A stretch of 64,000 nt of DNA from Corynebacterium sp. CNCTC7651 (lineage in GTDB: Bacteria > Actinomycetota > Actinomycetes > Mycobacteriales > Mycobacteriaceae). Made by a program: the position numbers and the translations under genes. Position 1 is the first letter of the stretch. Each line of letters begins with the position of its first letter. Shown here piece by piece: positions 382-64,000 of the stretch. The notes under the pieces are model-generated. The model ran no database searches and was not told the DNA's origin. It was given only the letters and a program-made list of their open reading frames with translations. The stretch covers positions 372,001-436,000 of the forward strand of contig NZ_CP071246.1 of assembly GCF_021496665.1 (NCBI RefSeq), in the 5' to 3' direction.

Positions 382-1389
382 ATGGCTTTGCAGCGCGTTC
401 TTTCCGGCATTCAACCCACCGCGGACTCCTACCATCTGGGTAACTACCTGGGTGCGCTGAAGCAGTGGATCGACCTGCAGGACGGGTACGACGCGTTCTA
501 CTTCATCCCGGACCTGCACGCGATCACGGTGGAGCAGGACCCGGAGGAGCTGCGTAACCGCACCATCGCGGGCTGCGCGCAGCTGATCGCGCTGGGCATC
601 GACCCGGACAAGTCCACGCTGTTCGTGCAGTCCCACGTGCCGGAGCACGCGGAGCTGACCTGGGTGCTGCAATGCCTCACCGGTTTCGGCGAGGCCGGGC
701 GCATGACGCAGTTCAAGGACAAATCCGCCAAGCACGGCCAGGACCGCACCTCGGTGGGCCTGTTCACCTACCCGATCCTGATGGCGGCGGACATTCTGCT
801 GTACTCCCCGCAGCTCGTGCCGGTGGGGGAGGATCAGCGCCAGCACCTTGAGCTCACCCGCAACCTGGCGGAGCGTTTCAACGCCAAGTACGGCGAGACG
901 TTCGTGGTGCCGGAGGGCATGATCCCGGAGGGCGCGGCCAAGATCTACGACTTGCAGGAGCCGACGGCGAAGATGAGCAAGTCCGGCACTAACCCGAAGG
1001 GCTTGATCAACTTGCTGGATGAGCCGAAGGTGTCCGCCAAGCGCATCCGCTCCGCCGTGACGGACGCGGACGGCGTGATCGCGTACGACAAGGAGAACAA
1101 GCCGGGCGTGTCCAACCTCCTGGTCATCCAGTCCGCGCTCACCGGCCGCCCTGTGGACGAGATTGTCGCGGGATACGAGGGCCAGGGCTAGGGCGCGCTC
1201 AAGGTGGACACCGCGGACGCGCTCGAGGCATTCACCACCCCGCTGCGCGCCCGCTTCGACGAGTTGATGGCGGACCGCGGCGAGCTGGAGTCCATCCTCG
1301 CCCGCGGCGCTGAGCGCGCCCGCGAAGTCGCGGGGCCCCTGCTTGCCGACGTGTACTCCAAGGTCGGCTTCCTCACTCCCCGCCGCTAA
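382..1389 (+). pseudogene. trpS: Tryptophanyl-tRNA synthetase, interrupted by an in-frame TAG
   Basis: Class Ic aminoacyl-tRNA synthetase that charges tRNA-Trp. The N-terminal part has the HIGH-like signature ([15 protein letters not shown], residues about 14-28) and the KMSKS loop (AKMSKSG, near residue 197). The frame stops at TAG 1189-1191 after 269 residues ([12 protein letters not shown]). The same frame then continues without another stop to 1389 with GALKVDTADALEAF and LLADVYSKVGFL, the normal C-terminal helices of the family. Joined, the product would be about 336 residues, the usual length. Corynebacterial TrpRS normally has an aromatic residue (GYG) here, so one base change from TAC or TAT explains the stop. 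The downstream part is conserved, so this is a very recent mutation, a sequencing error, or a read-through codon. Confidence 0.9.
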
Positions 1390-1444
1390 GCACTTCCTCT
1401 ACGATGAGGGGCTGGACCACATCGGAATGAGGAAGGGACGGTCG

Positions 1445-2533
1445 ATGGCAACCTCGACATCGCCGCGCAAGGCCTACACTGACCAGCAGGGCATCGAGCG
1501 CGCCACCAAGCAGCAGCAGCCAGACTTGGAAGACAAGCTAGAGAGAAAGGCCCCGGCTGCGGCGCACCTGATGCGGATGCAGGAGCGCTTTGCGGAGCAG
1601 GGCGGCAACCAGTTCGCCGCCGGCATCACCTACTTCTCCGTGCTGGCGATCTTCCCGCTGGCGATGCTGCTGTTCGCGGCCGCCGGTTTCTTCCTGAACG
1701 CTCGACCGGAACTGATGCAGCAGATCCAGGACCAGATCACCCAGAACCTGGAGGGTGACCTGGGCGATTTAGTTAACAGCATCCTCGAGGCTGCGATTGA
1801 CCAGCGCGGCGCCGTCGCGGGTGTAGGTTTGCTGACCACCCTGTGGTCCGGCCTGAACTGGATGAACCACCTGCGGGCGGGTGTCACCACCATGTGGGGC
1901 CTGGACGCGAACGAGGGCGGCAACTTCGTGGTGAAGAAGCTGCGTGACCTGCTTGGGCTGATCGGCCTGATTGCGCTGCTCCTTCTGGCGTTCGGCGTGA
2001 CTGCCATCGGCGTGTCCGGGTGGACGTCCCAGGTGATGGAGTACTTCGGCCTCGGCGACTTCCCGGGCTCCCGCGCGCTCGTGTGGTTTGTCGGGTTCTT
2101 GGTCTCTGTCCTGGCCAGCTTCCTGGTCATGTTGTGGGTCGTGATGTACATGCCGCGCACCAAGGTCCCGGTGAAATCCGGCCTAAAGGGCGCGCTGCTA
2201 GGTGCGATCATCTTCGCCCTGATTCAGCAGTTCGCCGGCCTGATCATCGGATCCGCAACGGGCAACCCGGCCGGCGCAGTGTTCGGCCCGATCATCTCGC
2301 TCATGGTTGTGCTCTACCTGGTCTGGCGCGTGGTGCTGTACGTCTCCGCGTGGACGGCTACCACCGAGGAATCGCTCAAGATGCAGCCCGCGGACGTGCC
2401 ACCTCCAGCCGTGATCAACGTGCGCGCGGGTGCCGCGTCCAGCAGCAAGGACAACACTGGTAAGGCAGTCGGCGTAGGCGCGGCCCTGGGCGCCATCGGC
2501 GTGGGCATTGCCTCGCTGCTCACCCGCAGCTAG
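1445..2533 (+). CDS. YihY/BrkB-family inner membrane protein
   Basis: A 362-residue membrane protein. A charged N-terminal segment of about 60 residues precedes the YihY/virulence-factor BrkB domain (GNQFAAGITYFSVLAIFPLAMLL and following). Five to six hydrophobic segments run to about residue 310, then a polar tail and a last hydrophobic glycine-rich stretch. The family is called envelope-integrity or YhjD-like; its molecular role is unsettled. ATG 1445 was chosen because GAGGAAGGGA ends about five bases upstream; ATG 1427 is a longer alternative. The stop overlaps by 4 bp the convergent carboxypeptidase gene. In corynebacteria this gene usually follows trpS. Confidence 0.8.
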   Translation: MATSTSPRKAYTDQQGIERATKQQQPDLEDKLERKAPAAAHLMRMQERFAEQGGNQFAAGITYFSVLAIFPLAMLLFAAAGFFLNARPELMQQIQDQITQNLEGDLGDLVNSILEAAIDQRGAVAGVGLLTTLWSGLNWMNHLRAGVTTMWGLDANEGGNFVVKKLRDLLGLIGLIALLLLAFGVTAIGVSGWTSQVMEYFGLGDFPGSRALVWFVGFLVSVLASFLVMLWVVMYMPRTKVPVKSGLKGALLGAIIFALIQQFAGLIIGSATGNPAGAVFGPIISLMVVLYLVWRVVLYVSAWTATTEESLKMQPADVPPPAVINVRAGAASSSKDNTGKAVGVGAALGAIGVGIASLLTRS

Positions 2534-62154: not shown

Positions 62155-63372
62155 ATGGAGTACCTCGAGGGGGCGCTGCGCACGTACCCGTGGGGGTCGC
62201 GCACGCTCCTCGCATCCTTACGCGGTACGCCAGCTCCCGCACCGACGCCTGAGGCGGAGCTTTGGTTCGGCGCGCACCCTGCCGCACCCTCGCGTGTCGA
62301 CGGCGCTTTGCTCGACGCCGTCATTTCCAACGACCCCGAGGCTGCCTTGGGCGCGCGGGTCGCCGCCGACTTTGACGGGCAGCTCCCATTCCTGGTCAAG
62401 CTGCTGGCTGCTGGGGAGCCGCTCTCCATCCAGGCGCACCCGTCCGCCGCGCAGGCGCGGGAAGGCTTCGAGCGCGAGAACGCGCTGGGGATTGCCCTGA
62501 ATGATTCCCGCCGCAATTACAAGGATCCGAACCCGAAGCCGGAGCTCATCGTTGCGTTGACGAAATTCCACGCGCTGGCCGGCTTCCGGCCGGTGGCGCA
62601 AACGCAGCAGCTGTTCGCCGTGCTGGGTGGCCTCGGCCGCTACGCCGGCGTACTAGACCCCGCCCAGCCGAGCGAGAGCCTGCGGACCATTTTCACCACG
62701 CTGATCTCGCTGCCGTCGGCACTGCGATTGGCCCTGCTGGAGGATGTGGCCACGGCCGCGGCAGAGCTGGCTGAGACCGCCCCAGAGCCGTGGATGGCCG
62801 AGGTAGCACGCACGTTTCTGCGGCTGGCCGACCGCTACCCGGGCGATGTCGGCGCGCTTGCGGCGCTGCTACTCAACCACGTCACCCTGCAGCCGGGTGA
62901 CGCGCTGTACCTCGCCGCAGGTCAGCTCCACGCCTACCTCTCGGGGCTCGGCGTGGAGGTGATGGCCAACTCGGACAACGTGCTCCGCGGCGGCCTGACA
63001 TCCAAGCATGTGGACGTGCCGGAGCTGGTCCGCGTGTTGGACTTCAGCGAACTGTCGGACCCGCACGCGCCTGCGGAGGTCGCGGACGGCACCACGTTGT
63101 TCAACTTGCCAATCGACGCCTTCACCGTCTCCCGCCACCGCCTTGGCGCAGGTAGCGAGCTCCGTGCAGATACAGACGGCCCCGCCGTCGTGCTGTGCAC
63201 CGCTGGCCGCGCCCAAACCGGCGGCTCCGGCGGCTCCAGCGGCTCCGGCGAGTTCGCGCTCACGCCGGGCCAAGCGGCGTGGATCCCCGCCTCCGACCCA
63301 GCCGTGACCTTCACCGCGGCCGACGGGGAGGGCGCTGAGCAGTTTGCAGAGCTGTTTTACGTGCGGGCGTGA
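62155..63372 (+). CDS. manA: Mannose-6-phosphate isomerase
   Basis: 405 residues, type I PMI; converts fructose-6-phosphate to mannose-6-phosphate. YLEGALRTYPWGSRT at the start, zinc ligands in LSIQAHPSAAQAREGF (about 88, Gln and His), PKPELIVALTKF (about 128, Glu) and GQLHAYLSGLGVEVMANSDN (about 258, His). ATG 62155 follows AGAGGAG. The C-terminal half contains a Gly/Ser run (TGGSGGSSGSGE). Last gene of the mannose block. Confidence 0.95.
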   Translation: MEYLEGALRTYPWGSRTLLASLRGTPAPAPTPEAELWFGAHPAAPSRVDGALLDAVISNDPEAALGARVAADFDGQLPFLVKLLAAGEPLSIQAHPSAAQAREGFERENALGIALNDSRRNYKDPNPKPELIVALTKFHALAGFRPVAQTQQLFAVLGGLGRYAGVLDPAQPSESLRTIFTTLISLPSALRLALLEDVATAAAELAETAPEPWMAEVARTFLRLADRYPGDVGALAALLLNHVTLQPGDALYLAAGQLHAYLSGLGVEVMANSDNVLRGGLTSKHVDVPELVRVLDFSELSDPHAPAEVADGTTLFNLPIDAFTVSRHRLGAGSELRADTDGPAVVLCTAGRAQTGGSGGSSGSGEFALTPGQAAWIPASDPAVTFTAADGEGAEQFAELFYVRA

Positions 63373-63390
63373 GAACGCTCCGTCGTCAAG

Positions 63391-64000
63391 CTAGGGCTCA
63401 ACCGGGGTGGTGGGGGTGAGCTCGGCCCCGGACTCGACCGCGACGGACTCGGCAGTTTCGGGGGTGGCCACGGTGGTCGCCGTCGCGGTGGCCACCTCCT
63501 GCGATGCTGGCGTGCGCACGCTGGTCTCCGGCTCCTCCGCCGGGGTCGGGGACGGAGCCTCGGAGGTGGCCGTAGTCACGGCCTCGGTGCTGTTCGGCGG
63601 GGTCGTCTGCGGCTCCAGCACGGTGCTCTCCGGCTCGGGCACGCGACTCGGCGCGACCGGCGTATTCGTTGCCCCAGGAACACCAGGAGTCTCAGGAGCC
63701 CCGGTCGGGCTGGGCTGCTCCTGCGAGGGCGGACGCACATTCGTCGGCCGGTAGACCGCGGTGGGCGCAACGGAGCGCGGCGCGGATGTCACAGCCAGCG
63801 GAGGCGCGTACGGGTCCGCCTCCATCCGGTAGCTGGAGTTGGCCTGAGGCGCCAGCGCAACATCGCTGCCCCCGGCCCCGTACTGGTTCGCGTGCTGCGC
63901 CTGCCCGGCATCGGCTGGCCTCGGCGGGCGGCTGGACCTCGGCTGGGGGGATTCGCTCTTGCGTGACGACGGTCCACTTTCACCCGACGCCGAACTCGTC
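63391..64000 (-). CDS. Pro/Thr/Ser-rich protein, partial (C-terminal end)
   Basis: The reverse frame is open from the window edge to TAG 63393-63391, at least 202 residues with no start in sight. It is low-complexity: RKSESPQPRSSRPPRPADAG, QANSSYRMEADPYAPP, then a long Pro/Thr/Glu/Ala stretch (SPTPAEEPETSVRTP, ATATATTVATPE) to the end. This is like the extracytoplasmic or linker part of a surface or membrane protein; the folded part, if any, lies past 64000. No function can be assigned. Converges with manA. Confidence 0.55.
   Translation of the reverse strand, partial: TSSASGESGPSSRKSESPQPRSSRPPRPADAGQAQHANQYGAGGSDVALAPQANSSYRMEADPYAPPLAVTSAPRSVAPTAVYRPTNVRPPSQEQPSPTGAPETPGVPGATNTPVAPSRVPEPESTVLEPQTTPPNSTEAVTTATSEAPSPTPAEEPETSVRTPASQEVATATATTVATPETAESVAVESGAELTPTTPVEP

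Follow-up and report, generated by a model that had tools for sequence, protein, structure and literature searches.

The chromosome of Corynebacterium sp. CNCTC7651 is densely sown with a split 11-bp word, GCTTNNCGACG, which is very probably the core of a DNA uptake sequence (DUS) of the genus Corynebacterium; the copies are observed, whereas uptake, a receptor and a drive that spreads the word are what we infer. The word was noticed in a stretch of 64,000 nucleotides (contig NZ_CP071246.1, positions 372,001 to 436,000 of the forward strand; hereafter the window), where it is found in 46 exact copies, 25 on the forward and 21 on the reverse strand. Dinucleotide-shuffled versions of the window contain on average 1.32 copies (maximum 5 in 100 shuffles), and a scan for spaced words places GCTTNNCGACG and its sub-words at the top ranks. 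The original prediction, made from the letters of the window, therefore stands as regards the repeat and the single match or so expected by chance, but its total of 45 (24 forward, 21 reverse) does not. Likewise, simple gene calls made here (28 sense, 11 antisense and 7 intergenic copies) reproduce the reported sense excess but not the exact 30 sense and 12 antisense copies. TT precedes 15 of the 46 copies, as had been stated, and the three copies described as lying directly after genes are indeed 7–9 bp beyond called gene ends. On the whole chromosome, a single contig of 2,453,109 bases, there are 1,418 copies (695 forward and 723 reverse), or one per 1.73 kb, compared with 70 (30 + 40) for the reversed word used as control. 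This agrees with the proposed chromosome-wide signal lacking strand bias. A codon-shuffled null, a count of one-base variants and a count in related species had also been suggested as checks, and all three were run.

The codon and flank tests were done on a 463-kb sample consisting of the window and 20 further stretches, approximately 19% of the genome. It contains 294 copies: 171 sense, 66 antisense, 53 intergenic and a few spanning gene ends. Synonymous shuffling, which keeps each protein and its codon set (100 runs), yields only 9.8 sense (maximum 18) and 9.2 antisense copies (maximum 15), corresponding to a coding total of about 19 instead of 237. Since shuffled codons fail to reproduce the count, codon choice is excluded as the source of the word, in line with the earlier claim that protein sequence alone does not explain it. 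One frame, Leu-x-Asp with Leu encoded by CTT, is common to 153 of the 171 sense copies, which confirms what had been said of most of them, and of the 996 CTT codons counted in sampled genes no shorter than 300 bp, 149 fall inside the word. Density is 0.65 copies per kb in coding and 0.57 in intergenic DNA, with no obvious enrichment toward gene ends. The word is strictly defined: of all one-base variants tested only GCGTNNCGACG, whose copies carry part of the flank described below, is clearly enriched (59 vs 9.4), and the spacer is fixed at 2 bp, with spacers of 0, 1, 3 or 4 bases at or near chance level.

Alignment of the sampled copies reveals a longer element. T is favoured before the core and at the second free base, and downstream, position +12 is a pyrimidine, positions +15 to +17 read CTT and +19/+20 are A, after which a C-rich tract extends from +21 to roughly +45. 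The C-over-G skew of this tract (+21..+45) is 0.31 for sense (172 copies), 0.38 for antisense (68) and 0.31 for intergenic copies (53), against a null of about 0 with a standard deviation of 0.02 to 0.04. The tract goes with the motif irrespective of the gene and is therefore part of the element. It recurs in 25 loci of named species (skew 0.24, 296 copies) and in five genomes with the GATG form of the word introduced below (skew 0.27, 132 copies). The CNCTC7651 genome also shows a genuine G-rich stretch at -10..-6, which is seen neither in the named relatives nor in the GATG form. Finally, with regard to inverted pairs, which in uptake sequences can serve as transcription terminators, the 273 gaps between neighbouring copies include six convergent and no divergent pairs within 80 bp, with just two of the six wholly intergenic.

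To place the word within the genus, 242 Corynebacterium genomes were surveyed, presence being scored at at least four times the reversed-word control. The count of GCTTNNCGACG, from here on the GACG word, is bimodal: 170 of the 242 genomes reach the threshold (median 1,090, maximum 1,964 copies) and seven lie between two and four times the control. Among 28 named Corynebacterium genomes searched whole, 22 reach it, including C. glaucum (1,553 copies, control 99), C. stercoris (1,558, control 83), C. gottingense (1,476, control 82), C. sputi (1,361, control 71), C. aurimucosum DE0410 (1,179, control 61), C. striatum ATCC 6940 (1,135, control 71), C. minutissimum 1941 (1,131, control 69) and C. 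riegelii (848, control 74); C. spheniscorum, C. uropygiale, C. marambiense, C. mendelii, HMSC04H06 and TAE3-ERU16 fall below. Outside the genus, four times the control is reached neither by any of five outgroup genomes nor by any of 140 genomes representing 30 further genera of the family, the highest ratio in the latter set being about 2.6. At this threshold, and in the genomes sampled, the word is limited to Corynebacterium within the family.

The word comes in dialects. A second form, GCTTNNCGATG (the GATG form), which first surfaced in de novo scans of motif-poor genomes, is present in 490–1,337 copies in 14 of the 242 genomes, 13 of which have just 26–97 copies of the GACG word. The remaining one, G024, has both dialects (1,337 GATG and 352 GACG copies). 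A 60-kb sample of G024 contained 32 GATG and 2 GACG copies, and the GACG copies may therefore be unevenly spread. Another 13 genomes, nine of them GACG genomes, have 140–223 GATG copies. A third form, TGACGNCGCG, is strong in a single genome of the 242 (G012: 1,144 copies, 563 + 581, vs a control of 50), the runner-up being G021 with 143 vs 30. Since the logo of G012, approximately GNTTGATGACGNCGCG, aligns with GCTTNNCGACG, we read TGACGNCGCG as a putative derived dialect. A de novo scan for further dialects covered 20–60 kb of each of 30 genomes that have no more than 301 GACG copies. The clear genome-wide words that it yielded were GATG and TGACGNCGCG alone, at incomplete sensitivity, as GATG was missed in G001 (20 kb; 1,021 copies) and G027 (736 copies). 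Two genomes, G088 and G202, look like cases of a decaying GACG word.

A rapidly built TadA tree (60 selected genomes, no bootstrap) requires at least four changes of dialect and at least 10 of presence or absence. Four GACG genomes sit within the GATG clade: the sisters G035 and G106, G150, and G078. The first three have 134–150 GATG copies vs a median of 53 in GACG genomes, and these extra copies look like remnants of an older dialect. As to individual sites, in 11 motif-rich relatives the word is retained in 33 of 85 site-species pairs, in which the same window sites are counted repeatedly, vs 232 of 2,629 shifted controls, and in three motif-poor species in 0 of 14; in C. stercoris, the nearest species, however, the figure is only 3 of 8 vs 27.5% for its own control.

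Secondary contigs are nearly devoid of the word. Twenty of them, 1.4–145 kb long and drawn from 14 GACG genomes, were searched over at most their first 20 kb each, two of them masked. They contain 7 copies vs 122 predicted from chromosome density (about 120 over 324 kb after masking), compared with 4 for the reversed word. They are likely plasmids. Their GC content is lower (51–64%), and base composition is a confounder of word density: in the CNCTC7651 genome density is 0.23 per kb in genes of 55–60% GC (3 copies) and 0.86 per kb at 68–72%. On the chromosome, 169 of 309 sampled copies point away from and 140 toward dnaA at 2,306,155 (p 0.11, with the terminus assumed opposite dnaA), so that replication polarity of the word is not significant in this sample. 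The search for dnaA also returned six weak DnaA-model matches that look alike (70130, 999179, 1172635, 1792192, 1932986 and 2333710; 263-aa frames with the same E-value), which we take to be of the kind expected for the helper ATPase of a multi-copy insertion sequence.

The genome encodes candidate uptake machinery. comEC (530 residues, Pfam Competence) adjoins comEA (215 residues, SLBB and helix-hairpin-helix), and a separate tad locus has TadA and TadF-type proteins above and a TadZ-type protein at the model cut-off, a weak TadE-type match (23 bits, cut-off 40) and a Flp-like DUF4244 protein. Judging by position, the locus presumably also has tadB and tadC with a helicase gene next to them. 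In a panel of 80 genomes, TadA scores of at least 440 bits, judged by eye, are found in 47 of 47 motif genomes vs 14 of 33 others, a split that may merely follow descent. Six motif-less genomes (G007, G066, G121, G018, G049 and G081) form one separate TadA clade and have a TadE-like pilin of a different type. By eye, the ComEC open frame is about 480–670 aa long in motif-rich and 700–800 aa in many motif-poor genomes, with exceptions both ways; this trend, too, may follow descent. The common TadE-like type (E <1e-15) occurs in 162 of 184 motif genomes vs 20 of 58 others (p 7e-15, descent uncontrolled). TadE is divergent in a group having some 1,500 to 1,900 copies (e.g., G005, G056 and G090), and no TadE-like match was obtained in G172, with 1,535 copies. 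The presence of a [YF]xP(x)R loop within TadE is not decisive: among the genomes examined, it occurs in 15 of 27 with GACG, 14 of 14 with GATG (G024 among them), 8 of 14 lacking the motif, 2 of 3 with weak GATG and 0 of 1 with TGACGNCGCG; no clean dialect-switch residue was seen in the TadE-like pilin.

Minor pilins are nevertheless natural receptor candidates, because ComP is a minor pilin and PpdA is predicted to be one, according to passages of PMC12616744 and PMC6370729. Moreover, passages of PMC4322843 and PMC6370729 describe Flp/Tad genes as required for transformation of the actinobacterium Micrococcus luteus. Features of uptake sequences found in Corynebacterium are the abundance of the word, its non-palindromic form on both strands, its mostly intragenic position with a preferred direction, its dialects, its scarcity on putatively mobile DNA, and the presence of com and tad genes; PMC2346458 describes such a favoured orientation for known uptake sequences. 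Since copies, strands, gene direction, dialects, decay and contig scarcity match the DUS and the uptake signal sequence (USS), we propose a preference borne by a pilus receptor. A surface DNA receptor, most likely in the Tad/Flp pilus feeding ComEA and ComEC, would prefer fragments bearing the word, with the C-rich 3' flank aiding recognition in most species. Because of this preference, uptake and recombination would mostly involve own-kind DNA, and because word-bearing DNA would be imported more often, the word would spread and be maintained in the core chromosome, leaving plasmids and recent imports without it. A shift in receptor preference could make a whole genome drift into another dialect (from GACG to GATG and vice versa, or to TGACGNCGCG), and loss of competence or specificity would let the copies decay.

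A close parallel is the DUS of Neisseriaceae, with eight dialects and ComP as receptor, which, as far as the consulted part of PMC3630211 goes, is likewise short, non-palindromic, present in very many copies and divided into clade dialects; two dialects in one genome, as in G024, are described there for Simonsiella muelleri. In Corynebacterium, however, the word itself differs, is split by two free bases and belongs to a Gram-positive genus, and the candidate apparatus is a Tad/Flp pilus rather than the type IV pilus with ComP. The USS of Pasteurellaceae (Hin-USS and Apl-USS, predicted receptor PpdA/ComN; PMC12616744, in part) resembles the word in its discontinuous core with a flank tract and its two main dialects, but its flank is A/T-rich and not C-rich. 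M. luteus, compared by published description, is an actinobacterium with comEA, comEC and tad/flp (PMC4322843 and PMC6370729, in part); the terms 'uptake sequence' and 'sequence-specific' occur nowhere in the available text of PMC4322843. The highly iterated palindrome HIP1 of cyanobacteria, an abundant, largely intragenic short word not known as an uptake tag, is similar in abundance and location, but it is palindromic, whereas the Corynebacterium word is non-palindromic with a directional flank.

What else could the word be? Chief among the rivals, and akin to the nucleoid or segregation signal that the original prediction offered as its alternative, is a non-polar binding site for a chromosome-organising or nucleoid protein across the core chromosome, to which the even cover of strands and arms and the nearly empty plasmid-sized contigs would also be suited. 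We consider this unlikely, the protein search behind our judgement being confined to com and tad genes: a mostly intragenic, non-palindromic word that costs rare CTT codons would be unusual for an essential organiser, close relatives swap the dialect of the whole genome, and dozens of genomes do without the word. A replication-oriented signal, such as the FtsK-orienting polar sequences (KOPS) or a Chi-type recombination site, could account for many hundreds of copies genome-wide. Signals of this kind are strongly polar, and as the copies show no clear replication polarity, such a role is very improbable.

A restriction-modification or other self-marking site that protects host DNA would be consistent with the two free bases that split the word and with a logic of self and non-self. 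It is equally improbable, as the motif has an extended degenerate flank; moreover, enrichment is unexpected for restriction sites, and type I sites have longer gaps. Least credible of all is a bias in codons, amino acids or mutation. It would explain the frame shared by most sense copies, but not the counts lost upon synonymous shuffling, the same flank on antisense and intergenic copies, the strict spacer with most neighbouring words at chance, or the near absence of the word from plasmid-sized contigs of motif-rich genomes, GC content there being lower. The uptake sequence, already suspected in the original prediction, is favoured by the dialects, the scarcity on plasmid-sized contigs, the preferred gene direction and the lack of significant polarity.

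Several observations weigh against an uptake sequence. Neither main dialect is present in 48 of the 242 genomes, G012 included, and the nested GACG genome G078 has merely 56 GATG copies. The copies are not spaced significantly more evenly than random. The C-rich flank is weak in G090/G056 (skew 0.08, 43 copies) and absent in G012 (skew 0.02, 60 copies, +15..+39 of its own word). ComEC-type proteins, all matching under the curated cut-off of the model, and TadA are each found in 80 of the 80 panel genomes, motif-rich or not; as they are also present in motif-free genomes, the machinery is no predictor of the motif and its presence is uninformative. Nor is the TadE-like minor pilin a clean predictor, as 42 of the 242 genomes break the association, 22 with the motif lacking the common type and 20 without the motif having it. 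Finally, we found no published competence for any Corynebacterium in the open-access literature.

Among the open-access matches listed, with subscription papers and preprints outside their coverage, no title or start of an abstract reports an uptake word in Corynebacterium. To our knowledge, uptake words have otherwise been described mainly in Neisseriaceae and Pasteurellaceae. In the part of a 2017 survey of spaced motifs that was consulted (PMC5217627), C. aurimucosum and two further Corynebacterium species are given with only CRISPR-related pairs, and the string CGACG appears nowhere in that text. On the boldest reading, which we hold to be probable, this would be the first uptake-sequence system of a Gram-positive lineage, of an origin separate from DUS and USS, read by a Tad/Flp pilus tip with TadE/TadF-type minor pilins and split into three or more dialects that serve as barriers to mating.

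The copies in the window are listed in Table 1. The window genes match high-GC Gram-positive models for PrpD and pyruvate carboxylase; in a search with the latter the nearest sequences are from Corynebacterium species, the best segment being 98% identical with C. stercoris. A protein of 3,028 residues with fatty acid synthase I domains is encoded at 33330-42416 on the reverse strand. Three palindromes are enriched in the window, counted on both strands: TTTGCAAA (8 vs 0.26 expected; 4 places), TGTGCACA (10 vs 0.64; 5 places) and ATGTACAT (8 vs 1.05; 4 places). They may be regulator sites. In the motif-poor genomes G007 and G072 (300001-320000), a palindrome AGAC-N6-GTCT, often with outer T/A, occurs in each 10 times per 20 kb counted on both strands (5 places), and in one place in a second stretch of G007; it is possibly another dispersed element.

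Table 1. Exact matches to the core word in the window (gene context by the gene calls made here).
Sequence	Position	Strand	Remark
GCTTGCCGACG	1341..1351	+	
GCTTTTCGACG	3888..3898	+	
GCTTCGCGACG	4616..4626	-	
GCTTATCGACG	8114..8124	-	
GCTTAACGACG	9760..9770	+	
GCTTATCGACG	16695..16705	+	intergenic, gene end 7 bp before
GCTTGCCGACG	17370..17380	+	
GCTTTACGACG	20900..20910	-	intergenic
GCTTGACGACG	22109..22119	+	
GCTTATCGACG	24110..24120	-	
GCTTGACGACG	25989..25999	+	intergenic, gene end 9 bp before
GCTTGGCGACG	26372..26382	-	
GCTTGCCGACG	27912..27922	-	
GCTTATCGACG	28917..28927	-	
GCTTATCGACG	29421..29431	+	intergenic
GCTTTTCGACG	30938..30948	+	
GCTTGACGACG	31984..31994	-	intergenic
GCTTGCCGACG	32493..32503	+	
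GCTTTACGACG	32844..32854	+	
GCTTGACGACG	33998..34008	-	
GCTTTCCGACG	34923..34933	+	
GCTTTTCGACG	36431..36441	-	
GCTTGGCGACG	36488..36498	-	
GCTTATCGACG	36645..36655	+	
GCTTGACGACG	39065..39075	-	
GCTTATCGACG	39794..39804	-	
GCTTATCGACG	40094..40104	+	
GCTTGACGACG	42296..42306	-	
GCTTGACGACG	43872..43882	-	
GCTTTTCGACG	44131..44141	+	
GCTTCACGACG	45079..45089	+	
GCTTATCGACG	45658..45668	+	
GCTTATCGACG	46764..46774	+	
GCTTTTCGACG	46991..47001	-	
GCTTATCGACG	48265..48275	+	intergenic
GCTTCTCGACG	49144..49154	-	
GCTTGACGACG	49369..49379	+	
GCTTTACGACG	50826..50836	+	
GCTTGTCGACG	52624..52634	-	
GCTTGCCGACG	53912..53922	-	
GCTTTTCGACG	55601..55611	+	
GCTTTCCGACG	57464..57474	+	
GCTTATCGACG	60107..60117	+	convergent pair with 60149
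GCTTTTCGACG	60149..60159	-	convergent pair with 60107
GCTTATCGACG	61472..61482	+	
GCTTGACGACG	63381..63391	-	intergenic, 8 bp beyond gene end

If the word is an uptake sequence, natural transformation with a preference for own DNA would be, or would recently have been, within the means of many Corynebacterium species, human-associated ones such as C. striatum, C. minutissimum and C. aurimucosum among them. Corynebacterium would then provide a third, independent case of uptake words, with sequence choice tied to a Tad pilus, and the dialect switches offer a natural experiment for finding the receptor. Moreover, the word would explain gene flow in the genus and supply a genetic tag for species that are hard to transform, and its dialects would be mating barriers within a genus whose members live as commensals of humans and animals.

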